Shown in pieces: positions 21,222-44,614 of a DNA stretch of 64,000 nt. How positions within the stretch are numbered: position 1 is the stretch's first letter; each line of letters starts with the position of its first letter. A program made the position numbers and the translations under genes. Under the pieces are notes generated by a model. That model was not told the DNA's origin. It saw nothing but the letters and a program-made list of their open reading frames with translations, and ran no database searches. The stretch comes from Nocardioides sp. S5 (GTDB taxonomy: Bacteria > Actinomycetota > Actinomycetes > Propionibacteriales > Nocardioidaceae): contig NZ_CP022296.1 in NCBI RefSeq assembly GCF_017310035.1, forward strand, positions 4,402,001-4,466,000, read 5' to 3'.

Positions 21222-21239
21222 CGTCTCGGATCCGAGACG
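21222..21239. promoter_or_regulatory. Hut-type operator palindrome (locus 1)
   Basis: CGTCTCGGATCCGAGACG is a perfect 18-bp palindrome 54 bases before the M20-hutF-hutI start codon. A near-identical 16-bp copy (one base different) lies 45 bases before hutH at 44599-44614. The 14-bp core TCTCGGATCCGAGA resembles, from memory, the TCTG...CCAGA-type site of the IclR-type HutR of corynebacteria. Confidence 0.75.
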
Positions 21240-21259
21240 GGCCTCGCGCCCGGCCCGCT

Positions 21260-21335
21260 GCTGTAACGCCGGGTTAGTACCTGTACCCACCCGGATATAT
21301 CCAGGGGGGTACAAGCAGTAACCCGGCGTTACAGC
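21260..21335. promoter_or_regulatory. 76-bp hyphenated palindrome between divergent operons
   Basis: The stretch is symmetric about 21297/21298. Outer arms GCTGTAACGCCGGGTTA (21260-21276) and its exact complement (21319-21335) match over 17 bases, each also holding a TAAC-N5-GTTA box. TGTACCC and GGGTACA pair next, and the centre is the AT-rich palindrome GGATATATCC (21293-21302). It lies between the hut M20 gene (minus) and the nitroreductase gene (plus), so a dimer-of-dimers operator over back-to-back promoters is the simplest reading. Confidence 0.8.
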
Positions 21336-21377
21336 GGGAGTACCCGCGCCGCGGAGGAGAGTGGGAGGCTGGCGGCC

Positions 21378-21992
21378 ATGGAGTTCCGCGAGGTCGTACG
21401 CCGTCGCCGCATGGTGCGCCGCTACTCCGACGCCCCGGTCGACCCGGAGGTGGTCGACCGGATGCTCGCCCACGCCCAGCGCGCGCCGAACGCCGGCTTC
21501 AGCCAGGGCTGGGCCTTCCTGGTGCTCGACACCCCCGCCGACGTCGGCCGGTTCTGGGAGTCCACGGGCGCCGACCCGGAGACGCACAACGCGTGGCTCG
21601 ACGGCATGCGGACCGCACCGGTCGTGATCGTCCCGCTGGCCAGCAAGGACGCCTACCTCGACCGCTACGCCGAGCCCGACAAGGGCTGGACCGACCGGAG
21701 CGAGGACCGGTGGGCGGTGCCGTACTGGTGGGTCGACACCGGCATGGCGGCGCTGCTGGTCCTCCAGACGGCCGTCGACGAGGGCCTGGGCGCGTGCTTC
21801 TTCGGCATCCCGAGTGAGCACGTCGCCTCCTTCCGCTCGGCGTTCGGCATCCCCGACGACCACGCCCCCGTCGGCGCGATCACCGTCGGGCACCGGCTCG
21901 CCGACACCGGTGCGGCGGGGTCACCGGTGCGACGGGAGCGGCGTACGAATCTGGTCCATCGCGGCCGCTGGAGCACTACGGTCAGCCCATGA
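21378..21992 (+). CDS. Nitroreductase family flavoprotein
   Basis: This 204-residue protein starts M-E-F-R-E-V-V-R-R-R-R-M-V-R-R-Y, the FMN-phosphate Arg block of the nitroreductase fold. It continues A-P-N-A-G-F-S-Q-G-W, then a G-L-G-A-C-F-F-G-I-P block that lines the flavin. Members are FMN-dependent NAD(P)H oxidoreductases acting on nitro compounds, flavins, quinones or enamides; the substrate is not evident. A GGAGGAGAGTGGGAGG purine-rich ribosome region precedes the ATG. Its stop shares 4 bases with the next start (ATGA). It is first gene of a three-gene unit with an M20 peptidase and an MFS transporter, transcribed away from the hut operon and probably controlled by the 76-bp palindrome. 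Confidence 0.9.
   Translation: MEFREVVRRRRMVRRYSDAPVDPEVVDRMLAHAQRAPNAGFSQGWAFLVLDTPADVGRFWESTGADPETHNAWLDGMRTAPVVIVPLASKDAYLDRYAEPDKGWTDRSEDRWAVPYWWVDTGMAALLVLQTAVDEGLGACFFGIPSEHVASFRSAFGIPDDHAPVGAITVGHRLADTGAAGSPVRRERRTNLVHRGRWSTTVSP
21977..21989 (+). promoter_or_regulatory. Internal leaderless -10 element for the M20 peptidase gene
   Basis: TACGGT at 21977-21982 lies 6 bases before the ATG at 21989, inside the 3' end of the nitroreductase gene. It could give a leaderless message for the downstream two genes independent of the upstream operon promoter. Confidence 0.45.
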
Positions 21993-23338
21993 CCGCTCTG
22001 CCCATCGAGAGACGTGCGGTGGGCGCCCTGCAGGCCCTCGTCCGCATCCCGACCGTCAGCGACCGCGACCCGTCAAGGGTCGACGCCGACGCCTTCGAGC
22101 AGCTCCTGGCCGAGCTCGCCCACCAGTTCCCGCTGCTCCACGAGCGGCTCGAGGTGATCCGCGTCGGCACCCACGGGCTGCTCGCGCACTGGGCCGGCGT
22201 GAGCGCCGAGCGACCGGTCGTCCTCATGGCCCACCTCGACGTCGTACCCGTCGACCCGGACGCGCCCTGGCAGCACGACCCGTTCGGTGGCGAGATCCAC
22301 GAAAGCCCCACGGGGCCTGCGATCTGGGGTCGCGGCACCCTCGACGACAAGGGCTGCGTCGTCGGCATCTGCGCGGCGGTGGAGCAGCTGCTCGAGGCCG
22401 GCCACGTCCCGGCCCAGGACGTCTGGCTGTCCTTCGGCTGCGACGAGGAGGTCAGCGGCACCGCGGCGATCGAGGCGGTCGGCGTCCTGCGCGAGCGGGG
22501 CGTGACGCCGTGGCTGGTGCTCGACGAGGGTGGTGCGATCGCCGGTGGCGCGTTCCCGGGCGTGAAGGCGCCGCTCGGCGTCATCGGCGTGACCGAGAAG
22601 GGCACCACCTCGCTCGAGCTGGTCGCGGAGGGACGCGGCGGGCACGCCTCGACGCCCGCGCCCAACGGTCCGACGGCCCGCATCGCGAGGGCGATCCTGC
22701 GGGTGGAGAAGTCACCCTTCCCCGCCTCCGCACCGGCGCCCACCCTCGAGCTCATGCGCCGCCTGGCCCCCCACGTCCCGCTCCCGCTGCGTCCGCTCCT
22801 GTCCCGTGCCGACCGCATGGCGCCAGTGGTGACCCGCGCCCTCCTCGCCGCCGGCCCCGAGGCCGCCGCCATGACGCGTACGACCGTGGCGACCACCACA
22901 CTCAGCGGGTCACCCGCCCTCAACGTGATCGCCTCGACGGCCCGCGCCGGGCTCAACATCCGCGTGATGGTGGGCGACACCGTGGCCGGGGTGGTCGAGC
23001 ACGTCCGGAAGGCCGTCGCCGACGACTCGATCCGCATCGAGGTCGTCGAGTCGGGCGAGCCCTCGCCGCTCTCCCCGATGGACGAGCGGTTCGAGCTGCT
23101 GGAGGACTGCATCGGCGCGGTCTTCCCGGACGCGGTCGCGACGCCCTACGTGATGATGGCGGCCACCGACTCGCGCCACTTCACCGCCATCAGCGAGCAC
23201 GTCTACCGCTTCGCCCCCTTCAGGATGACGAAGGCGCAGCGCGAGGCCATCCACTCCTACGACGAGCACCTCGGCGTGGCCGACCTGCTCGACGGCGTCC
23301 GCTGGTACGCCCTGCTGATCGAGAGGCTCCCCTCATGA
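21989..23338 (+). CDS. M20 family metallopeptidase (dipeptidase/carboxypeptidase-like)
   Basis: This 449-residue protein has a di-zinc centre visible as M-A-H-L-D-V-V-P-V, W-G-R-G-T-L-D-D-K-G and G-C-D-E-E-V-S-G, plus a dimerisation domain between. Late in the sequence, A-T-D-S-R-H-F supplies another His. It is closer to the PM20D1/carboxypeptidase S group than to the AllC-type protein at 19975-21168. No signal peptide is visible, so it is cytoplasmic. It overlaps both neighbours by 4 bases (ATGA), between nitroreductase and MFS, so all three likely act on one compound, perhaps an imported or exported N-acyl amino acid or dipeptide (inference). Confidence 0.9.
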   Translation: MTALPIERRAVGALQALVRIPTVSDRDPSRVDADAFEQLLAELAHQFPLLHERLEVIRVGTHGLLAHWAGVSAERPVVLMAHLDVVPVDPDAPWQHDPFGGEIHESPTGPAIWGRGTLDDKGCVVGICAAVEQLLEAGHVPAQDVWLSFGCDEEVSGTAAIEAVGVLRERGVTPWLVLDEGGAIAGGAFPGVKAPLGVIGVTEKGTTSLELVAEGRGGHASTPAPNGPTARIARAILRVEKSPFPASAPAPTLELMRRLAPHVPLPLRPLLSRADRMAPVVTRALLAAGPEAAAMTRTTVATTTLSGSPALNVIASTARAGLNIRVMVGDTVAGVVEHVRKAVADDSIRIEVVESGEPSPLSPMDERFELLEDCIGAVFPDAVATPYVMMAATDSRHFTAISEHVYRFAPFRMTKAQREAIHSYDEHLGVADLLDGVRWYALLIERLPS

Positions 23339-24786
23339 CCACCACCCGGCCCCCGGCCCAGACCGCCGCGAGGAGCCTGGCGGCCATCGTCGGCTTCCTC
23401 GTCCTCGTCGAGGTGGCCAGCGGGATCCTCCAGGGCTACTACACGCCCATCTACCCGCAGATCGCCGAGCACCTGTCGATCAGCGAGGGCGACATCAACT
23501 GGTTCGAGGCGGCACAGCTGATCGTCAGCGCGCTGTGCATCCCGCTCCTGGCGCGGCTCGGCGACCTCGTCGGGCACAAGACCGTGCTGCTCGTCTCGAC
23601 CGCCGTGACCGCCCTCGGCTCGTGGTGGCTGGCCTTCGCCCCGGACTTCACCACCTTCCTCATCGGCTGGGCGATCCAGGGCGCCTACGTCGTGTGGCTG
23701 CCGCTGGAGATCGCCATCATCCACCGCCGCACGCGCGACTCGGGCCGCCAGCAGCTGCTGACCCGCCGCGGGGCGGCGATCCTGGTCGGGGCGCTCGAGC
23801 TCGCCGTCATCATCGGCGCGGTGACCAGCGGCGTGCTCGTCGAGTCGCTCGACATGAACCTCCTCCTCGCGATGCCCGCCGTGGTCGTGACCGCCGTCTT
23901 CTTCGTGATCCTCGTTGGGGTCGAGCAGGCACCCGGCGACGACACCGGCGGCATCGACTGGACCGGCCTGGCCCTCGTCACCGTCGCCCTCGGCGTGCTG
24001 ATGGGCGGCCTGGTCTGGCTGCGCCTCGACGGGGCCGGCTCCCTGCGCGGCTGGGCGACGATCCTGGCCTCGGTCGCGGTGTTCGCCGCCTTCTGGCGCT
24101 TCGAGCAGCGCCATCCCGAGCCGATCGTCGACGTACGCCTGCTCTCGAGCCCCGCGCAGTGGCCGGTGCAGGTGACGGCCTTCCTCTTCGGCATCCCCGT
24201 CCTCGGCGGCCAGATCCCCCTGTCGACCTACGCCCAGGCCGACCCCGTCGAGCGCGGCTACGGCCTCGGCGCGGAGCCCGCCTTCATCTCCACCCTCATC
24301 GGGCTCTACGTCGTGACGCTGGCGATCGGCGCGTTCACCCTGCCGCTGACGACGCGGCTCCTGGGCGGCGTACGCCGTGCGCTGGTCGTCGCGTGCTGCC
24401 TCGTCGGGCTGGGCTACCTGCTGTGGCTGCCCTTCAACACCGAGACGTGGCAGGCGCTCGTCAACATGGGCATCGCCGGCCTCGGGTCGGGCGCGCTGGT
24501 CGCGGCCCTGCCCGCCGCGGCGGCCGCTGCTGCTCCCCCGGAGCGCACCGGCATCGCGACCGGCATGACCAACGGCACCAAGACCGTCGGCGGCGCGATC
24601 GCCTCGGCGGTCTTCGCGATCGCCCTGACCGCGACCGGCTCGCTCGACGCGACCGCGGAGGAGGTGGCGCCGTTCAGCGGCTACCTCACCGTCTGGGCGG
24701 TCTGCGCCGGCGCGTCCTTCCTCGCCGCGCTCGCGCTGCTGGCCGCGCCGAAGCACGCCTTCAGCGACGCGCCCGTTGCCCCGTGA
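23335..24786 (+). CDS. MFS transporter, DHA2-like with about 14 TM segments
   Basis: This 483-residue protein has about fourteen hydrophobic segments, the count of DHA2-type drug:proton antiporters. The loop L-G-D-L-V-G-H-K after helix 2 matches the MFS signature. The ATG at 23335 shares 4 bases with the peptidase stop; an open frame continues upstream but overlaps the peptidase and is not conserved-looking. It is last gene of the nitroreductase-peptidase-MFS unit and is followed directly by a strong hairpin that starts at its stop codon. Export of a toxic small molecule or amino-acid derivative is the usual role in this family. Confidence 0.9.
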   Translation: MTTTRPPAQTAARSLAAIVGFLVLVEVASGILQGYYTPIYPQIAEHLSISEGDINWFEAAQLIVSALCIPLLARLGDLVGHKTVLLVSTAVTALGSWWLAFAPDFTTFLIGWAIQGAYVVWLPLEIAIIHRRTRDSGRQQLLTRRGAAILVGALELAVIIGAVTSGVLVESLDMNLLLAMPAVVVTAVFFVILVGVEQAPGDDTGGIDWTGLALVTVALGVLMGGLVWLRLDGAGSLRGWATILASVAVFAAFWRFEQRHPEPIVDVRLLSSPAQWPVQVTAFLFGIPVLGGQIPLSTYAQADPVERGYGLGAEPAFISTLIGLYVVTLAIGAFTLPLTTRLLGGVRRALVVACCLVGLGYLLWLPFNTETWQALVNMGIAGLGSGALVAALPAAAAAAAPPERTGIATGMTNGTKTVGGAIASAVFAIALTATGSLDATAEEVAPFSGYLTVWAVCAGASFLAALALLAAPKHAFSDAPVAP

Positions 24787-24815
24787 GGGATCCCCGGCCG
24801 ACCGGGGATCCCTCA
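24784..24815 (+). terminator. Strong hairpin terminator after the MFS gene
   Basis: A perfect 14-bp stem TGAGGGATCCCCGG with complement CCGGGGATCCCTCA surrounds a CCGA loop. The stem begins at the TGA stop itself. There is no U-run, as usual in high-GC actinobacteria. Confidence 0.75.
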
Positions 24816-24868
24816 GGTTGTCGGCCTCTGCACGGCCTGACAACCTCCGGGAGAGCCTGACAACCTCC
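24815..24868. promoter_or_regulatory. Operator-like repeats AGGTTGTC / GACAACCT
   Basis: GCCTGACAACCTCC occurs twice as direct repeats at 24835-24848 and 24855-24868, spaced exactly 20 bases (two helical turns). An inverted copy, AGGTTGTCGGCC, is at 24815-24826. They lie 35-90 bases upstream of the -10 of the next gene, placed like activator or repressor sites. Confidence 0.45.
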
Positions 24869-24902
24869 CGACCGCTGGAGACATCGGCCGCAGTGCGTGC
24901 AC

Positions 24903-24916
24903 TAGATTCGCCGCCA
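24903..24916 (+). promoter_or_regulatory. Leaderless -10 element of the secreted-protein gene
   Basis: TAGATT at 24903-24908 lies 7 bases before the ATG at 24916, with no Shine-Dalgarno between. Confidence 0.6.
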
Positions 24917-25857
24917 TGACTCGGGGGAATCGGGCGCGCCTGGCCGCGCTCACGACGGCACTGCTCACCCTTCCGCTGCTCGCCGCAGCGCCGGCCCTGG
25001 GCGCGGACCGTACGCCCCCCTCCCCGGTCGCGGCCACGGACGGCCGGGTCGCGGAGCGCACGCCCACCCGGCTGCCGGGCGGCGGGAGAACCGTCTTCGG
25101 CAAGAAGCGCTTCCTCACCGCCCACTACGGCACCGCCGGCACCGGCGTGCTGGGCGTCCTCGGGGAGACCGACCCGGACCGCGCGTTCGAGCGGATCGTG
25201 CGCGCCGGCAAGCCGTTCCTCCAGCGCGGCGAGCGGCTCCAACCGGTCTACGAGCTCATCGTCACCGTCGCGGACGGCGCGGACGTCCCCGGCACCGACG
25301 GCGACCACGCCCACGACGTCCTGCACAGCCGGGTGCAGTCCTACATCGACGCCGCCCGCCGTCACGGCGTGCTCCTGCTGCTCGACCTCCAGCCCGGTCG
25401 CACCGACTTCCTCACCACCGCCAAGCGGTGGGAGTGGGCGCTCGAGGACCCGTGGGTCGGCCTCGCGCTCGACCCTGAGTGGCGGGTCGGGCCGGGCGAG
25501 CTCCCAGGGCAGACGATCGGGTCGGTCTCCGCGCGGGAGATCAACCGCACCGCCGGCTGGCTCGCGCGGCTGACCCGCGACAACGGGCTTCCGGAGAAGC
25601 TCTTCGTCATCCACCAGTTCACCGACGGCATGGTTCCCGACATCCGCAGGGTGCGCCGGCGTGAGGGGCTGGCGATGGTGCAGCACGTCGACGGGTTCGG
25701 CAGCCCGGCCGACAAGCTCGCGACCTACCGCAACGTCGCGGTGCCGCGGAAGTTCACGATGGGCTTCAAGGTCTTCTACGACGAGGACGTCCCGCGCATG
25801 CGCCCGCAGCAGGTGCGCCGCGCGCTGCCCGACGTCCGGTTCGTGTCCTACCAGTGA
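24916..25857 (+). CDS. Secreted protein of unknown function, possible TIM-barrel fold
   Basis: This 313-residue protein has a signal peptide at about residues 1-30 (T-R-G-N-R-A-R then a Leu/Ala core, cleavage near A-L-G-A-D). The mature part has alternating hydrophobic strands and helices with L-L-L-L-D-L-Q-P-G-R, L-A-L-D-P-E-W and L-F-V-I-H-Q-F segments spaced like a TIM barrel. Acidic residues sit at strand ends, which would suit a glycosidase-like hydrolase, but no specific family motif was recognised. The single gene is preceded by a leaderless promoter and paired operator-like repeats, so it is probably regulated on its own. Function unknown. Confidence 0.75.
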   Translation: MTRGNRARLAALTTALLTLPLLAAAPALGADRTPPSPVAATDGRVAERTPTRLPGGGRTVFGKKRFLTAHYGTAGTGVLGVLGETDPDRAFERIVRAGKPFLQRGERLQPVYELIVTVADGADVPGTDGDHAHDVLHSRVQSYIDAARRHGVLLLLDLQPGRTDFLTTAKRWEWALEDPWVGLALDPEWRVGPGELPGQTIGSVSAREINRTAGWLARLTRDNGLPEKLFVIHQFTDGMVPDIRRVRRREGLAMVQHVDGFGSPADKLATYRNVAVPRKFTMGFKVFYDEDVPRMRPQQVRRALPDVRFVSYQ

Positions 25858-25923
25858 GGCCCGTCGACCGACGCTGGACGCTGGTCCGCCCCCTCTAGGC
25901 TGGTGTGCACGGAGGTGACCGTG

Positions 25924-26490
25924 ATGCCCGAGCACGACGAGTCCCCGGAGCAGTCCGGGGTCGAGCCCCCACGTCGCGGACCCGAGCGCGACGAGCGCAC
26001 CGGTCGCTCGGCGGCCGCAGCACGCATCGCCCACCAGGCCACCTGGGTCGACCAGCAGATCCGCCTGGCGATGGAGCGCGGGGACTTCGACGACCTGCCC
26101 GGAGCCGGCAAGCCGATCGAGGACCTCGGCGTCGAGCACGACCCCGACTGGTGGGTCAAGAAGCTCGTCGAGCGTGAGCAGATCGCCCTCCTCCCGCCGG
26201 CGCTGGCGATCCGCAAGGAGGACGCCGAGCTCGACGGACGGCTCGACCGCATCAACGTCGAGTCGGAGGTGCGTCGCGAGGTCGAGGAGTTCAACGCCCA
26301 CGTGCGCCGCGCGCTCTACACCCCGCCCGTCGGTCCGTCCGGTCCCCCGGTCATCACCCGCCAGCGCGACGTCGACGCCGAGGTCGAGTCGTGGCGCGAG
26401 CGGCGTACGGCACGCATCGAGGCCCAGCGCGCGGCGCGGGCGGCCGCCCCGCCCGAGCCGACGAAGCGGCGGTGGTGGCGGCGCCGCTGA
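25924..26490 (+). CDS. DUF1992 protein (DnaJ-homologue subfamily C member 28-like domain)
   Basis: This 188-residue protein carries the DUF1992 domain at about residues 40-110, with I-R-L-A-M-E-R-G-D-F-D-D-L-P-G-A-G-K-P-I as its hallmark. The rest is a charged N-terminal tail and an Arg-rich C-terminal tail (K-R-R-W-W-R-R-R) that could bind nucleic acid or membrane. No J-domain is present. The ATG at 25924 follows GGAGGTGA by about 6 bases; GTG at 25921 is an alternative. TAGGCT at 25896-25901 is a likely -10. The biochemical role of DUF1992 is not established. Confidence 0.85.
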   Translation: MPEHDESPEQSGVEPPRRGPERDERTGRSAAAARIAHQATWVDQQIRLAMERGDFDDLPGAGKPIEDLGVEHDPDWWVKKLVEREQIALLPPALAIRKEDAELDGRLDRINVESEVRREVEEFNAHVRRALYTPPVGPSGPPVITRQRDVDAEVESWRERRTARIEAQRAARAAAPPEPTKRRWWRRR

Positions 26491-26606
26491 CCGATCGGGC
26501 ACTCCCCATGGCCCGAACGGACTACTTCAGCCCGATCGCCGGGTGACATCCCTCCGGGGCGCATAGCGTCCGTCAAGTTCGAGTTGACGCGATCCCCGGG
26601 GGAAGC

Positions 26607-29600
26607 ATGTCCACGTCCTGGTCCACCACCGGCACGCGCCGCTTGGTCCACACCACTGTCGCCGCTGCGGTCGCCGCGGTCGCGCTCCAGGCGGTGCCCG
26701 CGAGCGCCGCCGTCTCCGAACCTCGGATCACCGGGCCCTCGGGTGACACCGGTCCCTCGGTCGAGCTCAGCTGGGAGCCGGTCGAGAAGGCCGTCGGCTA
26801 CGAGGTGCGCGTCGACAACGACCCGGCCTTCGGCTCGGCGGAGTGGACGTCTGCCACCGTCAACACCGTCTCGGTGCCGACCAAGCTCCTCGGCAAGGGC
26901 CAGCAGTACATGGGCGTTCGGGCCAAGGACTCGACCGGCGCGTGGAGCGACTGGGCCACATCCGCCTTCACCGTCACCGCCGCCGCCGGGCCGGTGCTCC
27001 TCGGCCCGGACGACGGCATCACCCTCGCGCAGCCCGCGGACCCGCCGCTGCTGACCTGGGCCCCGGTCTCGGGGGCGGCGTCCTACACCGTCGAGGTCGA
27101 CGACGAGCCCGGCTTCGTCAGCCCCAGCACCTACCCCACCGAGGCGACCGCGCTGGTGGTGCCGAACAACCAGGCGCCCGACGTCACCTACTACTGGCGG
27201 GTGCGCGCCGACCTCGCCGACGGCTTCTCCACCGACTACTCCGACGACCGCTCGTATACCGTCGCGCCGATCGTGCAGCCCACCATCATTGGTCCCTCGA
27301 CCGACGAGGACGTCATCGATGTCGTGCTCGACTGGAGCCCGGTGCCGGGTGCGAAGTACTACGAGCTCGAGGTGGACGACGACGTCAACTTCGGCAGCCC
27401 GGTCGATTCGCAGCAGGTGCCGGCGCAGATCTACGGGACCCGCTTCTCTCCCAAGACGACCCTCGGCAACGGCCAGTACTACTGGCGCGTGCGGGCGCGC
27501 GACCTCGACAACAACCCGACGGAGTGGGTGCGCGTCTCGCCCGACGAGCACTACTTCTTCGATCGCCAGTGGCGTGACAAGCCTCAGCTGGTCTACCCCT
27601 ATGACCCCGCGGGCACCCTCCAGCACGTCAGCAACGACCTCTACTACGAGTGGGAGCCCGTGCCCCACGCCTCCAACTACGAGGTCTGGCTCAGCACCGA
27701 CCCGAACTTCACCGACGACCCGCTCGTCAACCCAAAGGTCACATGGAAGTGCGTCGTCGCCGGGACGACCTACACGCCGGGCGAGATCGGCCCGTCGGTC
27801 GACGCCTGCATGCCGTCGGCCGAGGACCGCGTCTACTACTGGAAGGTCCGGCCGATGGACCGTCCCTTCCGGACGACCGGGGTGGAGGGAATCTTCTCCG
27901 ACCGGCAGAGCTTCGTCTACACCGACCAGGACGCGTTCTCGATCTCCACTCCTCAGAACGGCGCAACCGTCGAGGTCCCGACCCTGGCCTGGGCACCCAT
28001 CAACGGGACGGAGACCTACGAGGTCAAGCTGCTCCAGGCCGGTGCGGTCATCAAGGCGGCGTCGACCCACTCGACTTCGTACACGCCCTTCGACCTGAAG
28101 CTCGACCCCGCCAAGGGCGCCTTCACGTGGGAGCTTCGCGCGCTGGACAAGGCACTGCGCACCACCCAGATCGCCTCGCGGACCTTCACGCTTTCGACTC
28201 CTCCTGACACGTCTACTCCGCTCGAGCTCTTTCCGGGGCCCGCAACCTACGACGCGCCCCACTTGCGTTGGGGTGCCATGACCGGTGCGGAGTACTACCG
28301 GATCGACATCGCAGACGCAGCGACCGGCTCGCCGTACGCCGACGGCGTGGCGCCGATCCTCGCTGCCAAGCTCTACTACCCCTCCGCTACCGACACCTCG
28401 GTGAAGTTCCTCGACGAGGGGACCTACCTGTGGTGGGTGACCGCCTACAGCAAGGACAACCAGGTCCTGGGCACGAGCTCGAACGAGAGCTTCGTCGTCC
28501 AGCCGCTCGGGCCCGTCACGGGCCAGCGGCTGGCCCTCAGCGGTTCCAGCCTGGATGCGGGCGCCGCCTGCACCGAGACCCTGAGCAACAGCGGCGCACT
28601 CTGTGACGGCGTACCCGCCACTCCGGTCCTTGACTGGGACCCGGTGCCCTACGCATCCGAGTACCGCGTGCGCGTCTCCCGAGACCCCGACTTCACCAGC
28701 GGTGAGCTCGCCGGTAACCCGCCAAGGACCGTGAACACCCGTTGGGCTCCGCGCGCCGGCTACCCCTTCCTCGCGCTCGAGGAGAGCCAGGCCAACAACG
28801 CCTACTACTGGTTCATCCAGCCCTGCAAGTCGGCCATCCAGTGCGGCCCCGACCCGGAGTCGACCATCAACCCGTCCCGTCACGCGTTCAGGAAGAGCTC
28901 TCCTCAGGTGCAGCTGCTGTCACCCGCCAAGGACGCAACGACGGTGACCACCGAGGTCACCTTCGAGTGGACCGACTACTTCGACACCAACCGCGCCGCG
29001 GTCTACGACGCTACGGACGAGCTGAGCTACCAGTCCGCGATGCGCTACCGCCTTCAGGTAGACGACGACCCAGCCTTTGGTTCACCGATCGACGATGTTC
29101 TCGTCGACCAGACCACCTACACGGCAGCCGACCGGCTCTACCGCGAAGGTCCATTGTGGTGGCGCGTTCGCGCGATCGACGCGAACAACAACGCTCTCGC
29201 ATGGTCAGAAACTCGCGCCTTCGCGACGAAGAGCCCGGTCCCGACGCTGACCTCGCCGGTCGTGACAGACGGGAAGGTCCCCGTCGTCACCGGCGCGGTG
29301 CCGTTCCGCTGGGAGGCACTGCCCTTCGCCGGTGGCTACGACGTGCAGGTCGCGGCCAACGCCGACCGCAACTTCTCCGGCGCCAACCTCAAGGTCAACG
29401 TCCTCGGCGCGAAGCGATCCGCCTTCACGACCGGGTCCACCGTGTCCCCGACGGTCCAGACCCTGCAGGCCGCCGACAGCTCCTACGTGTGGCGCGTGCG
29501 TCGCGTCGACCCGGACGGCAACAGGGGCGACTGGTCCGCGGTCGGCGAGTTCAAGGTCCAGCTCAAGCAGCCCACACTGACGGCCCCCGCTGCCGGCACG

Positions 29601-33409: not shown

Positions 33410-33410
33410 G

Positions 33411-34594: not shown

Positions 34595-34640
34595 GCTGCG
34601 TCCGCCCCCTGGGGCTGTGGCCAAACGCCGTCCGTCGGCC

Positions 34641-35449: not shown

Positions 35450-35455
35450 GGCGAG

Positions 35456-35486
35456 GCAGTCGCCGGCGAGGCACGCCGGCGACTGC
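35456..35486. terminator. Bidirectional hairpin between convergent genes
   Basis: GCAGTCGCCGGC and its complement form a perfect 12-bp stem with a 7-base loop. It lies between the stops of the SGNH gene (35449) and M48 protease gene (35487), so it can end both messages. Confidence 0.75.
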
Positions 35487-36512
35487 TCAGGCGCTCTCGC
35501 CGCGACGGAACCGGTCGCCGATCCACGTGCTCGCCGAGCCGACCCAGCCGGCGAGGTCGTGGACCAGGCGGCCGAGGGTGTCCTGGGTGCGCTCGAAGGC
35601 GACGGCGTAGCTCGCGGCCGCCTCCTGCGCGGCCTCGCTGACCGAGGCCTCGTCGTCGTCGCCGCGACGCGGGTAGGTGCCCCCGAGGATCGCGGTGTAG
35701 GCGCCCGAGTCAATCCAGCGACGGAGCTCGGTCGCCCGGACGACGGCGAAGGGGTGCGACTGCTGCTGCAGCAGGGAGAGCTTGATGAGGGACTCGCGCA
35801 CGTCGCCGCCCTCGTCGTACTCCGCTCCCTGGGAGAGGAACGACGTCACGTCGAGCTCGTCGAGGGTGCCGCCGCTGGCGAGCTTCATGTGGGTGCGCAG
35901 CGCCGCGGTCGGGTCCTGTGCGGCGAGCAGTCCGGCGCGATCGGCCGACAGCTCGGCCTTGCGCGACCACTCGAGCAGCCCGACGGTGACCATGCGGATG
36001 CCGATGGCGCCACCGGGGATCGCGTTGAGCAGTCCGCCGAGGCCGAGCAGGCGGACCAGCAGCGTGCGGTAGACCGCGTGGCCGCTGACCGCGTGGCCGA
36101 GCTCGTGGCCGATGACGAAGCGCAGCTCGTCGTCGTCGAGGTGGTGCACCAGGCCCGAGGACAGCACGATGATCGGGCGGTCCATGCCGACGGTGATCGC
36201 GGTCAGCGTCGGGTCCGCCTGGACGTACATCTCGGGCAGGTCGGTGGCGTCGAGGCTGCGGCCGACCTCGGCCAGCAGCCGGTGCAGCCGCGCGAACTGC
36301 CGCTCGTCGACGCGCACCGCTGAGCCGAGCAGCGTCAGGCGCCACGCCCGCTCGCGGAAGACCCCCGACATGGTCTTGAGCAGCACGTCGAAGCCCTTGA
36401 GCTTGCGCAGCGCGACCAGTGCGCCCCTGTCGGCGGGGTGCTCCCACGCCCGCGAGCTGATGTCCGTCAGCACGACGCGCGAGCGCGCCGGCTTCTTCTC
36501 CCCCGATGCCAT
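35487..36512 (-). CDS. M48 family zinc metalloprotease
   Basis: This 341-residue protein has the zinc motif HELGH at residues 136-140 and a downstream Glu in R-K-A-E-L-S-A-D-R about 50 residues later, as in HtpX/Ste24-type proteases. Unlike HtpX, transmembrane segments are weak; one hydrophobic stretch (L-L-G-L-G-G-L-L-N-A-I-P-G-G) follows the zinc helix. The C-terminal tail is charged. Likely role is protein quality control at or near the membrane. It stands alone, convergent to the SGNH gene and divergent from the APH-fold kinase gene 100 bases away. Confidence 0.9.
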   Translation of the reverse strand: MASGEKKPARSRVVLTDISSRAWEHPADRGALVALRKLKGFDVLLKTMSGVFRERAWRLTLLGSAVRVDERQFARLHRLLAEVGRSLDATDLPEMYVQADPTLTAITVGMDRPIIVLSSGLVHHLDDDELRFVIGHELGHAVSGHAVYRTLLVRLLGLGGLLNAIPGGAIGIRMVTVGLLEWSRKAELSADRAGLLAAQDPTAALRTHMKLASGGTLDELDVTSFLSQGAEYDEGGDVRESLIKLSLLQQQSHPFAVVRATELRRWIDSGAYTAILGGTYPRRGDDDEASVSEAAQEAAASYAVAFERTQDTLGRLVHDLAGWVGSASTWIGDRFRRGESA

Positions 36513-36612
36513 GGAGCGATCCTGACGTACGGCGGCACCGAATGTCGCGGGTTCGCGCCAACCACGTCGAAATCGGGTGTCGGACGGGCGGCCGCCCGGT
36601 CATCATCTCCGC

Positions 36613-37914
36613 ATGCCCACCTCGCAGCGCACGCACCACGTCGCCCTCGTCCGCGACGACAGCGTCCGCGTCACCGGCAACGGCGCGCTGCCGAGCTTCG
36701 TGCAGGACCGCGAGGACGATGACGCGCCCGATCCCACGGCGTACGCCACCACCGTCGTCGGCCACGGGGTGCACCTGGCCCCGGTCGTGACGTTGCCCCA
36801 GGAGGACGCCGACAGACCGCCCGACCGGCTGCACGTCCTTGCGCTGCGCGGCGGAGCGCCCTCCGGCACCGACTGGCGACGGGTCGACGACCTCGACGAG
36901 CAGTGGCGGGCACCGGTGCGCGCGGCCCTCGAGCAGTACACCGGCTCCGCCCCTCCGCGACGACCGGACTGGTTCCGTCCCGGGTGGCACGACCGGGTCG
37001 AGGCGTGGGTGGACGACCGGCTGTCCGCGATCGGGAGTCGACGCACGGGCCCGCTCCGCACCCACCGGGTCTGGAGCATCTCAGCCGTGTTCGAGGTCCC
37101 GACCGACCGCGGCACGCTGTGGTTCAAGGCGTGCTGCGACCACTTCATCGCCGAGGCGGCCATCGTGCGCCGCCTCACCCAGCGGATCGGCCACCTGGTG
37201 CCGCTGCTGGTGGCGGGGGACGACCGAGCCGGCTGGCTGCTGATGGAGCCCTTGCAGGGCGCCTCCGACCGCGACCGCGCCGACGGCGCCGCCGACGCGG
37301 CGGCGCCCCGGTGGGCGCGGGCGCAGGTCGCGGCACTCGACTGGCTCGACGAGCTCCGCTCCGCAGGTTGCCCCGAACGGGGTCTGGAGGCCACGCTCGC
37401 GGCGTGGCGCGTGGTCCTGGCCACCAGCCCGGAGCTGGCCCAGCTCACCGAGTCCGAGCGGTGGGAGCTGACGACCGCCGGCGCGGCCGCCGAGGCGCTG
37501 GTGCGCGAGTTCTGGGCGTGCGGACTCCCCGACACCCTCTCCCACGGCGACCTGCACCCCGGCAACGTCGCCTACGACGGACGTGAGGTGCGGATCTTCG
37601 ACTGGACCGACGGCTGCGTGACGCACCCGTTGCTCGACGGCAGCCACCTCGCCCGCGTGCTCGACTGGTACGGGACCGGCGAGGGCGAGGCGGAGCGGGT
37701 GATGCAGGCGCACGCACGGCCGTGGCGCGACGCCTTCCCCGACGCCGACGTCGACCGCGGCCTCGAGCTCGCTCCGCTGGCGGACCTCGTCTTCCAGACC
37801 GTCACCTTCGCCCAGATCGCAGCGGCGGCCGAGGACGGCTCCGGCGACTTCGACGGCGTCGTGGCCATGCTGACCCGCAAGGTCGTCGAGTGGGTGGCCG
37901 TCGAGGACGGCTGA
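36613..37914 (+). CDS. APH-fold phosphotransferase (aminoglycoside phosphotransferase family)
   Basis: This 433-residue protein has the C-terminal kinase core with the catalytic loop S-H-G-D-L-H-P-G-N and metal block I-F-D-W-T-D. These are the Brenner and DFG-equivalent motifs of APH/choline-kinase-like enzymes. The first ~150 residues form an extra domain of unknown type ending in a W-F-R-P-G-W segment. Substrate unknown: sugars, antibiotics or amines are all possible. The ATG at 36613 lies after a weak purine site, and the upstream in-frame start is less convincing. Ends 10 bases from the convergent DUF664 gene. Confidence 0.85.
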   Translation: MPTSQRTHHVALVRDDSVRVTGNGALPSFVQDREDDDAPDPTAYATTVVGHGVHLAPVVTLPQEDADRPPDRLHVLALRGGAPSGTDWRRVDDLDEQWRAPVRAALEQYTGSAPPRRPDWFRPGWHDRVEAWVDDRLSAIGSRRTGPLRTHRVWSISAVFEVPTDRGTLWFKACCDHFIAEAAIVRRLTQRIGHLVPLLVAGDDRAGWLLMEPLQGASDRDRADGAADAAAPRWARAQVAALDWLDELRSAGCPERGLEATLAAWRVVLATSPELAQLTESERWELTTAGAAAEALVREFWACGLPDTLSHGDLHPGNVAYDGREVRIFDWTDGCVTHPLLDGSHLARVLDWYGTGEGEAERVMQAHARPWRDAFPDADVDRGLELAPLADLVFQTVTFAQIAAAAEDGSGDFDGVVAMLTRKVVEWVAVEDG

Positions 37915-37924
37915 GTCCCCCGGG

Positions 37925-38503
37925 TCAGTCCACCCGCCGTGCTGCGGCCTCGATCTCCTCACGCCGCCGAGCCCAGAAGGCGGCGTCGGGCCCGTCGGCG
38001 GCCATCGCCTCCGCGTCGGTCCCGACCGCTCCGTCGAGCCCCTCGCGCAGGATGTCGGCGTGGCCGGCGTGCCGGCTGGTCTCGGCGAGCAGGTGGGTGA
38101 GGACGTTGAAGAGCGGCACCTCGGCGTCCCCCCACCACTCCACGCGGCCGGTGCTGTCGAGGTCGAGCGCCTCGACGGTCGCGTCGCCGTGGGCCCAGAC
38201 CCGGCGGTAGCGGTCGATGACGTCGGCCCGCGACTCGTCCTCGGTCGCCCAGCTGTCGGCGTACTGCTCCGCCTCGTCGTCCCACCGCGGCAGCGGCTCC
38301 GGGAAGGGGCGGCCGAACACCTCACCGAGGTAGCGCGCCTCCCACGTCGCGAGGTGCTTGACGAGGCCGAGCAGGTTGGTCCCGGTGACGGTCAGCGGAC
38401 GGCGTACGTCGTACTCCGAGAGCCCGTCGAGCTTGGCGAGCACCGCCTCGCGCTCGTGCTGGAGGTAGGCGTGGAGGTTGGCCTTGGCGGCGTCGGCGTC
38501 CAT
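37925..38503 (-). CDS. DinB/DUF664 family protein
   Basis: This 192-residue four-helix protein has the metal-site pattern of DinB-like proteins: a His in L-V-K-H-L-A-T-W-E near residue 49, and later S-R-H-A-G-H-A-D-I-L-R-E. The A-R-H-x-G-H-A-D type block is the DUF664 signature, a group related to mycothiol-dependent isomerases and transferases. Mycothiol use would suit an actinobacterium but is inference. Single gene, divergent from the metzincin gene with a 103-base gap. Confidence 0.9.
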   Translation of the reverse strand: MDADAAKANLHAYLQHEREAVLAKLDGLSEYDVRRPLTVTGTNLLGLVKHLATWEARYLGEVFGRPFPEPLPRWDDEAEQYADSWATEDESRADVIDRYRRVWAHGDATVEALDLDSTGRVEWWGDAEVPLFNVLTHLLAETSRHAGHADILREGLDGAVGTDAEAMAADGPDAAFWARRREEIEAAARRVD

Positions 38504-38594
38504 GCCGACACCCTGCCACCGGCCGCGGCTCAGCCATCGGACCGCGACGTTGCGCGATCTTCGGCAATCGCCTGCGGCCGGGCTGCGTGCTGGC

Positions 38595-38607
38595 TACCGT
38601 CGCTCGG
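38595..38607 (+). promoter_or_regulatory. Leaderless -10 element of the metzincin gene
   Basis: TACCGT at 38595-38600 lies 6 bases before the GTG at 38607; no ribosome site is present. Confidence 0.6.
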
Positions 38608-41273
38608 TGCCCGTGCCCCAGCTCCGACGCCTCCCTCGCCGCCTCACCGGGGCCGTTGCCCTCGCCCTCCTCGCATCGACGTCGCCCGTCGGCGCCGTGG
38701 CCCAGTCCGACCCGGCTGCGGGGCGCGGGCAGGACGTCCAGCTCACCGCTGCGCCCCGCCTGCTCGACGGGCCGGCCCGCGGCGAGCGCGCGATCCGCCG
38801 GCTCGGCGACATGCTGCCGGTGGCCGCGGCCCGCAACGACCTGCGTGCCGGCGAGCTGCGCTCCCTGCTGCGCAACGACGCGACCGCATGGGTGGACGTG
38901 GACGGCCGGGCCTACTTCGTCGAGCCCACCCCCGAGGCGACCGGGGCGGGTGCGCCGACGGCGCCCGCGGTGGCGCCCCTGTCCGAGACGTTCACGCTGC
39001 ACAGCAACCCCGGGGCGGACCTGACGATCTTCCTCGACGTGGACGGCGCCGACGTGTCGGGCACGGCGTGGAACTCCATGGGCGTGACGCCCGGCCTTCA
39101 TCCCGCCTGGGACCCCGCCGGCGACGGCGCCGGCTTCAGCGACAGCGAGAAGCGTCAGGTCCAGGAGGTCTGGGCGATCGTCGCGGAGGACTACGCGCCG
39201 TTCGGTGTCGACGTGACCACCGAGGACCCCGGCCATGACGGCCTGGTGCGGACCGACCCCCTCGACACGACGTACGGCACGCGGGTGCTGGTCTCGCCGA
39301 GCAACGACGCGCACACCACGATCTGCGACGGGGCCTGCGGCGGTGTCGCCTACCTGGACGTCTTCGACGAGATCGCGTCCCGCTACCAGCCGGCCTGGGT
39401 GTTCCCGCAGGCAGTCGGCGACGCCAAGGGCGTGGCTGAGGCGGCGTCGCACGAGGCGGGGCACAACCTCGGGCTGCGGCACCACGGCACCACGACCCAG
39501 GGCTACTACATGGGGCACGGGAGCTGGGCACCCATCATGGGGGTGGGCTACTACAAGCCGATCGTCCAGTGGAGCCACGGGTCCTACCCGGGGGCCGACA
39601 ACTCCGCCCAGGACGACGTCGCGGTGCTGACCGGATATCTCGGCCGTCGGACGGACGAGGCACCCGACGCGGTCGACGCGCCCGCCGCGCTGCTCACTGG
39701 GACGACGTACATCACCGACGCGAGCGACGTCGACACGTTCCTCCTCGGCCACTGCACGTCCGGCGCCGTCGTCGCGGTCGCCCCCGCCCCCCTCGCCCCG
39801 AACCTCGACGTGCGGGCGGTCCTCCGCGCCGGCGACGGCAGCGTGGTTGCCACCTCCGCACCCGTCTCCGGGTACGGCGACGGCACCACCGCGACGGGCG
39901 TCGACGCCACGCTCACCGTCCCGTCCACCGGTCCCGGCTGGACCGTCTCCGTCGAGGCGGTCGGCGAGGGCAGCTGGTCCGCCGGCGGGTACGACGACTA
40001 CGGCAGCCTCGGCGCCTACACCGTCACGGCCACGGGATGCGAGGACGTTCCGTCCGGCGCACCGAGCGCCCCGCAGAGCGCCGCCGCCGGGTCCGCGGCA
40101 CTGGGCAGCCTGACCCTGTCCTGGCAGGCCCCGGCGGACCCGGGCAGCAGCCCGGTCACGAGCTACGTCGTCAGCCGTTCGGGGACGACCCAGACCTGGA
40201 CACTGCCCGCAACGGCCCGCAGCCACGTCTTCACCGCGCTGGCCGCTGGGACGTCGTACGCCCTGTCGGTCCGTGCGGTCAACGCGACGGCTGCCGGACC
40301 GGTGGCCACGACTTCGGGCACCACGCTCGCCCCGCCGCCCGCCGCGCCCAGCGCTCCCCGCAGCGTGACCTCCTCGTACGACGCGGGCACCGACACGATC
40401 TCCGTCTGGTGGGCCGAGCCGAGCAGCTCCGGCACCCAGCCGATCTCGGGCTACGCGATCTACCTGGACGGCGTGCGACTGGGAGAGGTGGACCCGGACG
40501 GCCGGAACATCACGATGACCGACGAGTCGGGCTTCACCGAGGGCACCCACACCGTGGGCGTGGCCGCTGTGAACGCCGTCGGCGAGTCGGTCCGGGCAAC
40601 CGCGACGGTCGTCGTCGACCGCCCGGATGCCGTCCCCGCAGCGCCACTCCTCATCATGGTCATGTCGGGCGACGGCACGGCATCGGTCTCCTGGACGGCG
40701 CCCGCGGACAACGGCTCGGTGATCACCGGCTACACGGTGATCGCACGGTCCGCGGGGGAGGTCGACCGCCGGTACGCCGTCGCGGCCCCGGCGCTCGGCA
40801 CCACCCTCACCGGCCTGACGAACGGCGTGACCTGGACGATCAGCGTGACCGCCACGAACGGTGTGGGCACGTCTGCGGAGTCCCAGCCCCTGGCCGTCAC
40901 GCCTGTGGGGGTCGTCGACACCGGAAACCCGCCCGCCCCCACCCCCACCCCTACCCCCACCCCGACACCCCCGCCGGTCCCGGTGTCGACGCCCACCACG
41001 CCGACCGCGGCCGTGCCGCTCCGCATGGCGCCTCCGAGGGTGAAGGTCACCGGGCGCAAGGTCGTCGTGAGGTGGTCGGCTGCGAGCAGCCCCACGAGCT
41101 CGGTCAGGACCTACCGGGTCGACCTCTCCAGGGGGACCGACAGGTCCGCCAGGGGATCGACCCGCAAGCTGGTGCTGAAGCTGCGGCCCGGCACCTACAG
41201 GATCAGGGTCGCCGCGCTCAACGCCACGGGCTGGTCGCGGTCCAGCCGCTGGGTCAGGGTCCGCGTCCGCTGA
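38607..41273 (+). CDS. Secreted metzincin-type zinc protease with fibronectin-III repeats
   Basis: This 888-residue protein has a signal peptide at about residues 1-35. The catalytic domain holds H-E-A-G-H-N-L-G-L-R-H-H, the metzincin zinc motif HExxHxxGxxH, followed by a Met-turn candidate (P-I-M-G-V-G-Y-Y) about 20 residues on. Cys pair I-C-D-G-A-C precedes it. A beta-sandwich domain follows, then three fibronectin-III modules (e.g. L-S-W-Q-A-P-A-D-P, V-S-W-T-A-P-A-D-N), a P-T-P-T-P-T linker and a basic C-terminal module. It likely degrades extracellular protein or binds polymers. GTG 38607 fits the leaderless promoter; a GTG at 38613 is an alternative. Confidence 0.9.
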   Translation: MPVPQLRRLPRRLTGAVALALLASTSPVGAVAQSDPAAGRGQDVQLTAAPRLLDGPARGERAIRRLGDMLPVAAARNDLRAGELRSLLRNDATAWVDVDGRAYFVEPTPEATGAGAPTAPAVAPLSETFTLHSNPGADLTIFLDVDGADVSGTAWNSMGVTPGLHPAWDPAGDGAGFSDSEKRQVQEVWAIVAEDYAPFGVDVTTEDPGHDGLVRTDPLDTTYGTRVLVSPSNDAHTTICDGACGGVAYLDVFDEIASRYQPAWVFPQAVGDAKGVAEAASHEAGHNLGLRHHGTTTQGYYMGHGSWAPIMGVGYYKPIVQWSHGSYPGADNSAQDDVAVLTGYLGRRTDEAPDAVDAPAALLTGTTYITDASDVDTFLLGHCTSGAVVAVAPAPLAPNLDVRAVLRAGDGSVVATSAPVSGYGDGTTATGVDATLTVPSTGPGWTVSVEAVGEGSWSAGGYDDYGSLGAYTVTATGCEDVPSGAPSAPQSAAAGSAALGSLTLSWQAPADPGSSPVTSYVVSRSGTTQTWTLPATARSHVFTALAAGTSYALSVRAVNATAAGPVATTSGTTLAPPPAAPSAPRSVTSSYDAGTDTISVWWAEPSSSGTQPISGYAIYLDGVRLGEVDPDGRNITMTDESGFTEGTHTVGVAAVNAVGESVRATATVVVDRPDAVPAAPLLIMVMSGDGTASVSWTAPADNGSVITGYTVIARSAGEVDRRYAVAAPALGTTLTGLTNGVTWTISVTATNGVGTSAESQPLAVTPVGVVDTGNPPAPTPTPTPTPTPPPVPVSTPTTPTAAVPLRMAPPRVKVTGRKVVVRWSAASSPTSSVRTYRVDLSRGTDRSARGSTRKLVLKLRPGTYRIRVAALNATGWSRSSRWVRVRVR

Positions 41274-41279
41274 GGGCGC

Positions 41280-42977
41280 TCAGCCCTCGGACATCGGGAT
41301 CCGTACGCCGCGCTCCTGCGCGACCTCGGCGGCGCGGTCGTAGCCCGCGTCGACGTGGCGGATCACGCCCATGCCCGGGTCGTTGGTGAGCACCCGCTCG
41401 ATCTTCTCCGCCGCGAGCGCAGTGCCGTCGGCGACCGTGACCTGGCCGGCGTGGAGCGAGCGACCGATGCCGACGCCGCCGCCGTGGTGGAACGACACCC
41501 ACGTCGCACCGGAGGCGGTGTTGACCAGCGCGTTGAGGATCGCCCAGTCGGCGATGGCGTCGGAGCCGTCGAGCATCGCCTCGGTCTCGCGGTAGGGCGA
41601 GGCGACCGAGCCGCAGTCGAGGTGGTCGCGGCCGATGACGATCGGCGCCTTCAGCTCGCCGCTGGCCACCATCTCGTTGAACTTCAGCCCCGCGCGGTGG
41701 CGGTCTCCGTAGCCGAGCCAGCAGATCCGCGCCGGCAGGCCCTGGAACTGCACCCGCTCGGCGGCCATGTCGAGCCACGTGTGCAGGCGGGCGTACTCCG
41801 GCTTCTCGTCGGCCGGGAAGAGCTCCTTGATGGCGCGGTCGGTGGCGGCGATGTCCGCGGGGTCGCCGGACAGCGCGGCCCACCGGAACGGGCCCTTCCC
41901 CTCGCAGAACAGCGGCCGGATGTACGCCGGCACGAAGCCGGGGAACTCGAACGCCCGGTCGTAGCCGCCCTTGCGGGCCTCGTCGCGGATCGAGTTGCCG
42001 TAGTCGAAGACCTCGGCACCGGCGTCCTGGAACTCCACCATCGCCCGCACGTGCGTGGCCATGGACTGCTGCGCGCGCTTGGTGAAGCCGCGGGGATCTC
42101 GCGTGCGCTCGCGCTCCCAGTCGTCGTACGCCGTCCCGGCGGGGAGGTAGAAGAGCGGGTCGTGCGCAGAGGTCTGGTCGGTGACGATGTCGACCAGCGG
42201 GCCGTCCCCCGCCTCGTTGCGGGCGAGGTGCCGCTCGAGCAGCTCGGGCAGCACCTCGGCGGCGTTGCCGAGCAGGCCGATCGACAGACCGCGGCGCTCG
42301 TCGCGTGCCTCGAGCGCGAGCTCGATCGCGTGGTCGAGGTCGCGCGCCTGGACGTCGAGGTAGCGGGTCTCGAGGCGGCGGTCGATGCGGTGCTGGTCGC
42401 ACTCGACGCAGATCGCGACGCCGTCGTTCATCGTCACCGCGAGCGGCTGCGCGCCACCCATCCCGCCGAGCCCGGCGGTCACGGTGATGGTGCCGGCGAG
42501 GGTCCCGCTGAAGCGGAGGTCCGCGATCGCGGCGAAGGTCTCGAAGGTGCCCTGCAGGATCCCCTGGGTGCCGATGTAGATCCACGACCCGGCCGTCATC
42601 TGGCCGTACATCGTCAGCCCGAGGTCCTCGAGCCGGCGGAACTCCTCCCAGTCGGCCCAGTCGCCGACGAGGTTGGAGTTGGCGATCAGCACCCGCGGCG
42701 CCCAGGCGTGGGTGCGCATCACGCCGACCGGCTTGCCGGACTGCACGAGCAGCGTCTCGTCGTCCTCGAGGTCGCGCAGGGTGCGGACGATGGCGTCGTA
42801 CGCCTCCCAGCTGCGCGCCGCCTTGCCGGTGCCGCCGTAGACGACGAGGTCCTCGGGGCGTTCGGCGTTGTCGGGGTCGAGGTTGTTCATCAGCATCCGC
42901 AGCGGCGCCTCGGTCTGCCACGACTTCGCGGTCAGCTCGGTGCCGGTGGCGGCGTGGATCGGCAATCTGTCGTTCAC
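41280..42977 (-). CDS. hutU: Urocanate hydratase
   Basis: This 565-residue protein of the NAD-dependent urocanase family adds water to urocanate to give 4-imidazolone-5-propionate, step 2 of histidine use. Characteristic blocks are [12 protein letters not shown] (NAD binding), [15 protein letters not shown] with the catalytic-region Cys, and [10 protein letters not shown]. Length is normal. Its ATG shares 4 bases (ATGA) with the hutH stop. The end lies 6 bases from the convergent metzincin gene. Confidence 0.97.
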
Positions 42978-44551
42978 TGGAGTTCTCCGATCACGGACTC
43001 GGCGGCGGCGAGGACCGCGCCGGACTGGACGAGACCGACGGCGGCCTCGATCTCGGGCGAGAGGTGGCGGTCGGGCCCCGGGCCCTGGATGCCGGAGGAC
43101 CGCAGGAGCTCGACGACCGCACCGGTGGCGGGTGACGGGGTCAGCGGCGCCCGCAGGTCGAGCGCGCGAGCGGCGGTGAGCACCTCGACGGCGACCACCC
43201 GCGACAGGCCGTCGACTGAGCGGCGCAGCTTGCGCGCGGCGTTCCAGCCCATCGAGACGTGGTCCTCCTGCATCGCGCTCGAGGGGATGGAGTCGACCGA
43301 GGCCGGGACTGCGAGCCGCTTGAGCTCGGAGACGATCGAGGCCTGGGTGTACTGCGCGATCATGTGCCCGCTGTCCACCCCGGGGTCGTCGGCCAGGAAG
43401 GGCGGGAGCCCGTGGCTGCGCGCCCGGTCGAGGAACCGGTCCGTACGCCGCTCGCTGATCGAGGCCACGTCGGCGGCGACGATCGCGAGGAAGTCGAGCA
43501 CGTAGCCGACCGGGGCGCCGTGGAAGTTGCCGTTGGACTCCACGCGACCCTGCCCGTCAGGTCCGACCATGACGACCGGGTTGTCGACCGCACTGGCGAG
43601 CTCGCGGCCCGCGACCGTGGCGGCGTGCTCGACGGTGTCGCGGGCGGCGCCGTGCACCTGTGGCGAGCAGCGCAGGGAGTAGGCGTCCTGCACCCGGTTG
43701 CACTCCACCGAGCTGTCCGGCCCGGTGCGGTGCGAGGCCACGATCGCGGAGCCCGCCATGAGCGCGGTGAGGTTCGCCGCCGACAGCGCCTGGCCGGGGT
43801 GCGGGCGGATGGCCTGCAGCTCCGGCGCGAAGACCCGGTCGGTGCCGAGCTGGCCCTCGACGCTCATCGCGGCGGCGACGTCGGCGGTGCGCAGCAGCAT
43901 CCGGAGGTCGGCGATCGCCATGACCAGCATGCCGAGCATGCCGTCGGTGCCGTTGATGAGGGCCAGGCCCTCCTTGGCCGCGAGCTCGACCGGGGCGAGA
44001 CCAGCGGCGGCGAGCGCGTCGGCGGCCGGCACAAGGGTGCCCGAGGCGTCACGCACCTCGCCCTCCCCCATCAGCGCCAGCGCGCAGTGCGACAGCGGCG
44101 CGAGGTCGCCCGAGCACCCGAGCGAGCCGTACTCCCGCACCACCGGCGTGATGCCGTGCGTGAGCAGGTCCGCCAGCAGCTGCGCGGTCCCACGGCGTAC
44201 GCCGGTGCGTCCGGTCGCCAAGGTCGAGAGGCGCAGCAGCATCAGCGCCCGGACGACCTCCCGCTCGACCTCCGGACCGGAGCCGGCCGCGTGCGAGCGG
44301 ACGAGCGAGCGCTGGAGCTGGGCGCGCATCTCGGTCGGGATGTGGCGGGTGGCGAGGGCGCCGAAGCCGGTGCTGACGCCGTAGGTCGGCGTCTCGCCGG
44401 CGGCCAGCGCCTCGACGACGGCCCGGGCGCGGTCGACGGCCTCGAGGGCGTCGCTGGTGAGCTCGACGGCGGCCCCGTCGCGGGCGACCCGCACGAGGTC
44501 CTCGAAGGAGACGGGACCGACCCCGACCTGGATGTTCTGCATGCTCATCAT
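42974..44551 (-). CDS. hutH: Histidine ammonia-lyase
   Basis: This 525-residue enzyme deaminates histidine to urocanate. The MIO cofactor site reads [14 protein letters not shown], so the cyclising triad is Cys-Ser-Gly rather than the usual Ala-Ser-Gly; this variant is, I believe, seen in actinobacterial enzymes. Other blocks: Y-G-V-S-T-G-F-G and [10 protein letters not shown]. Several starts exist (TTG 44554, ATG 44551, ATG 44548); GGGAG about 4-7 bases upstream favours ATG 44551 or 44548. The Hut-type palindrome lies 45-48 bases upstream. First gene of the hutH-hutU pair. Confidence 0.96.
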
Positions 44552-44598
44552 CAAACTCCCGGCGCAGGGTCGTCACCACCCCATGACGAGGCTCTGGT

Positions 44599-44614
44599 GT
44601 CTCGGATCCCAGAC
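44599..44614. promoter_or_regulatory. Hut-type operator palindrome (locus 2)
   Basis: GTCTCGGATCCCAGAC is a 16-bp palindrome with one mismatch, matching the perfect palindrome at 21222-21239 in 15 of 16 positions. It lies between hutH (minus) and the membrane coiled-coil gene at 44733 (plus). Confidence 0.75.

Follow-up and report, generated by a model that had tools for sequence, protein, structure and literature searches.

One palindromic operator, probably read by the IclR-type regulator HutR, at two separated histidine-utilization loci of Nocardioides sp. S5

Two separated loci for histidine utilization (hut) in Nocardioides sp. S5 are each preceded by nearly the same palindrome, pointing to a single regulon controlled by a locally encoded IclR-family protein. 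The window analysed here is a stretch of 64,000 nucleotides, positions 4402001-4466000 of the one contig (4,749,522 bases) of this genome. Read from the window sequence, CGTCTCGGATCCGAGACG sits at 21222-21239 and GTCTCGGATCCCAGAC at 44599-44614, and the two 16-mers, GTCTCGGATCCGAGAC and GTCTCGGATCCCAGAC, share 15 of 16 bases. From a genome pattern search and promoter comparison, we predict that they are HutR operator 1 (21223-21238), before M20-hutF-hutI, and HutR operator 2 (44599-44614), before hutH-hutU, through which the local IclR protein would jointly control both loci. We assign this reading a probability of about 0.88. An initial annotation of the same DNA had proposed one operator for both loci, read by the local IclR protein; sequence evidence supports it: the near-exact sites have no counterpart elsewhere in the genome, the IclR gene and the motif occur together among relatives, and the motif is also present at split-off units, at hutD and at a permease gene. 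The positions and shared bases given there for the palindromes hold as well. So does the distance of 54 bases from the 16-mer to the annotated start of the M20 open reading frame (ORF; 21168), whereas the 45 bases given for hutH-hutU measure 44 to the annotated hutH start (44554). This second gap becomes 56 bases if the ATG at 44542, favoured by promoter comparison, is the true start.

Across the whole genome, counting matches on both strands as one place, the pattern TCTSGGATCCSAGA with at most one mismatch finds the two palindromes and nothing else, and the reversed control pattern finds one place. Likewise, exact matches to GTCTSNNATNNSAGAC are confined to the two palindromes, with none for the control, and allowing one mismatch adds three further places against one for the control. 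These three places were set aside; their neighbouring ORFs are listed, not annotated. The genome-wide search that the initial annotation had suggested thus returned, as near-exact sites, just the two hut-linked palindromes. With up to three mismatches the window holds 7 matches where 12.2 are expected, which is no excess; therefore, the signal resides in the near-exact sites.

The motif was then sought in 58 genomes of the same genus and order, among which hutH is present in 53, the IclR protein in 39 and hutF in 53, and which carry the exact motif somewhere in 41 cases. A motif was linked to hut when it lay at most 320 bp upstream of a hut gene with at least 45% identity; G027, G029, G037 and G050, without hutH and hutF at the limits used, were left out. 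With at most one mismatch, such a hut-linked motif is present in 38 of the 39 IclR-bearing genomes and in 0 of the 15 hut-bearing genomes that lack IclR (Fisher p 1.8e-12, a value that overstates independence because the genomes share ancestry). The corresponding counts are 34/39 and 0/15 for exact matches and 39/39 and 1/15 for up to two mismatches, and the closest approach of the reversed pattern is three mismatches in the 39 genomes and two in the 15. This search upstream of hut genes in relatives, too, had been called for by the initial annotation. It also bears on the idea that the palindromes arose by chance or are repeats without regulatory function that have the GGATCC core in common. 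The lack of an excess in the window at three mismatches agrees with that idea, but the uniqueness of the near-exact sites in the genome and their recurrence at the hut promoters of HutR-bearing relatives leave it with almost no probability, and we rejected it.

The distribution of the motif among relatives indicates that it tracks transcription units rather than single genes. In eight genus genomes with contiguous hutHU-M20-F-I (G006, G014, G015, G020, G025, G033, G034 and G035), the stretches fetched contain one operator, at hutH. When hutU is split from hutH, as in G008 and G010, it carries its own operator; in G001 and G011, IclR and the operators accompany the hutU-hutF locus, and hutH, which lies far from it, has no operator. 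M20 has the motif upstream in 11 genus genomes. Outside the hut clusters, unlinked copies precede a gene for HutD (PF05962) in G014 and G034 and one for an NCS1-family permease (PF02133) in G005 and G021. A HutR-type operator was also observed before a second, distant HutH-like lyase gene (27-32% identity, PF00221) in six genomes of family f3, where the identity to HutH is 27-30%, and in G011, for example at L101 8829-10091 and L068 3215-4483.

Beyond the genus, 80 of 577 confirmed named loci with HutR relatives were examined (Nocardioides, Streptomyces, Nonomuraea, Pseudonocardia, Frankia, a Cellulomonas metagenome-assembled genome and others), some of which share contigs with the 58 genomes. 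The motif is present in 63 of the 70 among them that have a testable hut start. In a sample of 296 genomes across the phylum, with at most 9 candidates scored per genome, HutR is encoded in at least 16 (E <=1e-60), and the 17 loci of this phylum sample have the motif in 9 of 11 testable cases; in the family of G095 (37 genomes matched, 30 loci examined) it is found in 22 of 25. Over the 1.45 Mb of named and phylum-sample loci, exact matches number 72, and the reversed pattern has none. Of the 12 misses in total, six carry GTCCGGGATCCCGGAC (L192, L194, L196 and L203) or a one-base variant of it (GTCCGGGATACCGGAC in L209, GTCCGGTATCCCGGAC in L182), in which both arms are altered symmetrically. 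Another, L181, has GTCCCAAATATGGGAC, with the same arms.

The regulator itself, hutR, is encoded on the plus strand at 45933-46700 (ORF 45822-46700), with GTG at 45933 as the probable start. Its product has the Pfam domains HTH_IclR and IclR_C, both over cut-off, and is the sole match within its own genome at E <=1e-30. These domains and the measured distance of 1.3 kb from operator 2 agree with the IclR regulator described in the initial annotation. The HutR of G007, a genome of the same genus, shares 98% identity with that of the window. In most loci mapped hutR lies near hutH, the arrangement of G001 and G011 aside; in G013 the hutF unit is 14 kb away from it and hutH about 350 kb. G005 encodes a second HutR-like protein (L085 5790-6533), 53% identical to the window HutR. 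A GTCTGGGATGGCAGAC site lies immediately upstream of it and a second site at 8217, in a locus where no hut gene was found.

PcaU and PobR are IclR-family activators; like HutR they have palindromic sites of one motif group, and they differ from it in their substrates. This grouping is made in PMC8222616, whose Table 1 gives HutR of Corynebacterium resistens with the site GTCTGWWATWCCAGAC (citing Schroder et al. 2012), and HutR is named among motif groups in PMC13273656. PMC3350403 states that an IclR-type hutR, "probably involved" in control, is part of the hut cluster in each of ten corynebacterial species; PMC9927256 and PMC4401554 only cite HutR; PMC9413887 has HisR as its subject; the passages of PMC2830990 on a corynebacterial hut cluster do not name hutR; and the part of PMC12772271 that treats hut enzymes in a Streptomyces leaves a hut regulator out of its account. 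In the literature searched, HutR was reported as a hut regulator for Corynebacterium only.

The likeness to the corynebacterial HutR site, pointed out in the initial annotation, was right: GTCTGWWATWCCAGAC has the same arms and AT centre. Like HutR of C. resistens DSM 45100, the window protein is of IclR type, is encoded with hut genes and is associated with a 16-bp GTCT..AT..AGAC frame, which the window sites match at hut promoters. The window differs in having its hut genes in two loci 20 kb apart and in using hutF and an M20 amidohydrolase instead of hutG. The family of G095, where the HutR-like proteins of 2-3 Mb genomes are 41-45% identical to the window protein, provides intermediate sites: GTCTGAAATACCAGAC in L232 fits the published consensus, GTCTGAAATACGAGAC in L234 is one base off, and others have GTCTCGGATCCGAGAC, identical to the window site. 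The series from the window site to the published consensus is continuous at the level of sequence. The local IclR protein is very probably HutR, because the near-exact sites are unique, motif and protein co-occur in relatives (38/39 against 0/15), the published site is alike and intermediates occur.

HutC of Pseudomonas and relatives, a repressor of the GntR family whose inducer is urocanate, resembles HutR in being one regulator for the hut genes and belongs to a different protein family. PMC12977541 describes it as one hut regulator answering to histidine or urocanate. One may ask if another regulator, for example of this GntR type, binds the palindrome, with HutR as a passenger; on a Tsukamurella plasmid hutC does lie between hutR and hutU, and the palindrome is on its hutU side, ahead of hutU. 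However, HutR and the motif occur together among the relatives, the arms equal those of the published HutR site, and no GntR domain was found among the 20 window proteins scanned, so that we consider this explanation highly improbable.

If HutR does read these sites, its direction of action may be sought in the promoters. We derived promoter coordinates from operator-anchored alignments, for M20 of promoters from 11 genomes, the support being weaker for hutH-hutU than for M20. The predicted M20-hutF-hutI promoter (21175-21203, minus strand) consists of TTGACC, beginning 20 bases past the operator, a 17-base spacer and TGGACT, followed by 6 bases to the ATG. The predicted hutH-hutU promoter (44550-44578, minus strand) has TGGTGA, a 17-base spacer and TTTGAT, with 7 bases to the ATG at 44542; its box starts one base further out, at 21. 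In the 11 genomes TTGACC is present in 11/11, in 10 of them starting 20 bases past the operator, and is followed by the 17-base spacer and, in 10, by TGGACT, with the start codon 6 bases on. A T at position 20 recurs in many hutH promoters, together with a box near 43-49 that is followed by an ATG 6-7 bases later. After removal of near-identical promoter sequences, T stands at position 20 past the operator in 0.86 of 7 M20, 0.71 of 99 hutH and 0.60 of 20 hutU promoters, as well as in 3/3 NCS1 and 1/1 HutD promoters, against a background of 0.15; towards hutR the value is 0.13 of 55. A profile built on hutH promoters has its peak at the same position for M20, hutU and NCS1 promoters and not for hutD; one built on M20 has it there for hutH, hutU and hutD and not for NCS1. 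A generic promoter scan was noisy for hutU, hutD and M20pep.

The operator therefore lies about 19 bases before the -35 box at many hutH, M20, hutU, hutD and NCS1 promoters, and in the window its centre is near -62 to -65 of an apparently leaderless start, clear of the -35 box. Activation is the most likely sign of regulation because the operator keeps a near-constant distance upstream of -35 and does not cover the promoter. In the mechanism we propose, a HutR dimer or pair of dimers would read the inverted GTCT/AGAC arms; bound at one site upstream of each -35 box, it would co-control hutH-hutU and M20-hutF-hutI, so that the two separated loci would form one regulon. That HutR would activate both promoters, presumably in the presence of histidine or urocanate, seems to us reasonably likely. 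The spacing near -63 at many apparently leaderless promoters, which is new here, suits activation better than repression, judging from the promoter sequences.

Many IclR-family members act as repressors. HutR could thus bind the palindromes and repress, blocking the polymerase from upstream or through pairing of dimers until histidine or urocanate releases it. In 56 of 64 distinct loci with an operator near hutR, that operator is 9-64 bases before the gene, as autorepression would allow. In 10 of the 30 loci of the G095 family (L235, L236, L237, L238, L240, L241, L242, L243, L245 and L246), hutH is preceded by operators arranged in tandem, 20 bp apart, as a tetrameric HutR would lead one to expect. 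However, the operator tends to stay about 19 bases clear of -35, a constancy that a blocking site does not need, and we regard repression as rather unlikely.

Returning to activation, one may speculate further, with about even odds, that in many actinobacteria HutR is an activator with fixed geometry at unlinked genes and that its regulon gains and loses units by the movement of an entire operator-promoter cassette. According to this speculation, operator and regulator would drift together, as from GTCT/AGAC to GTCC/GGAC in Pseudonocardia, and relatives that lack HutR would keep the -10 box and start without an operator. Among the HutR-lacking genomes, 4 of the 5 inspected keep a TTGGAT- or TTCGAT-type box 6-7 bases before the ATG, with no operator found.

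Several points weigh against the model, drawn from sequence, of HutR as the activating regulator of both loci. An upstream operator position does not by itself prove activation, and at M20pep the spacing is absent, T standing at position 20 in 0.20 of 5 promoters. The inner bases are A/T in the published consensus and G/C in the window sites; we do not treat the inner bases as family-defining, since the consensus comes from one species. G046 has HutR and a hutH site with two mismatches. Five of the 12 misses (L180, L187, L239, L244 and L247) are not explained by such variants; the last three of these, out of 25 testable loci from the G095 family, encode HutR and hutH with no recognisable site. 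In this genome no site with at most one mismatch serves hutR itself; a candidate at 45255 (GTCACGGGTGCCAGAC, two mismatches) was set aside. Given this, and the 1.3 kb that separate hutR from operator 2, autoregulation through this operator looks lost in the window genome. Finally, of the 20 genus genomes that have HutR and an M20 unit apart from hutHU, 9 (G004, G008, G009, G010, G013, G016, G024, G026 and G032) have no motif at M20 (at most one mismatch, 320 bp), and the second operator is not universal. Eight of these nine have a site about 0.7 kb away; in five of the eight (L050, L052, L061, L069 and L110) the gene that it directly precedes is M20 dipeptidase-like and related to window 21989-23338, and the intervening gene in L052 is a nitroreductase gene. 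Other annotated neighbours of these sites are an AMP-binding enzyme (L047) and a DnaJ-like protein (L041).

The genes that HutR would control in the window all lie on the minus strand. The first locus comprises hutI (imidazolonepropionase, 17502-18677, TIGR01224), hutF (formimidoylglutamate deiminase, 18674-20020, TIGR02022 and NF006681) and an M20-family amidohydrolase gene (19975-21168), which matches NF006770 (allantoate amidohydrolase) and TIGR01879, both over cut-off. The second comprises hutU (urocanate hydratase, 41280-42977, TIGR01228) and hutH (histidine ammonia-lyase, 42974-44542, ORF from 44554, TIGR01225), which likely starts at the leaderless ATG 44542, judging from promoter comparison. 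The initial annotation had the whole pathway encoded here; hutH, hutU, hutI and hutF are indeed present, but the genes scanned at both loci include no canonical hutG, and the M20 enzyme probably substitutes for it. Of 54 genomes, 48 have an M20 amidohydrolase gene immediately before hutF, while members of the FGase family (PF05013) occur in just 9 of the 58 genomes. The single FGase match in the window genome (73 bits, at 248847) is distant from hut. The M20 amidohydrolase is thus probably the N-formylglutamate deformylase of the hut pathway, to judge from these surroundings.

Between operator 1 and the nitroreductase gene lies a nested inverted-repeat element (21261-21334), composed of CTGTAACGCCGGGTTA, an inner GTACCCACCCGGATATATCC stem and TAACCCGGCGTTACAG. 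It is one of seven similar copies in the genome, with arm starts 55 bp apart in each, and a similar element lies beside M20 in G030. It matched no Rfam family above gathering score and no plasmid, and looks like a small mobile or REP-like hairpin. Two further kinds of palindrome were met in relatives. Sites of GTCTGACATSTCAGAC type in family f3 were set aside, as they precede a glutathione peroxidase gene in three annotated loci (L103 4901, L104 4865 and, with GTCTCTGATGTCAGAC, L105 4825), and the regulator that reads them is probably a different one whose site is similar. In G036 and G018 (L029 and L032), which lack HutR, a different palindrome-like sequence of TGGTCCGGACCA type precedes hutH and may be bound by a regulator that has replaced HutR.

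Relative to HutR as known from Corynebacterium, the additions made here are a wider regulon and the promoter spacing. Our findings put forward a regulator and an operator, both open to testing, through which Nocardioides, Streptomyces and other actinobacteria would control their use of histidine, and they flag the M20 enzyme as the probable deformylase of the histidine pathway. They also offer a geometric prediction, namely that HutR would activate its promoters from about -63.

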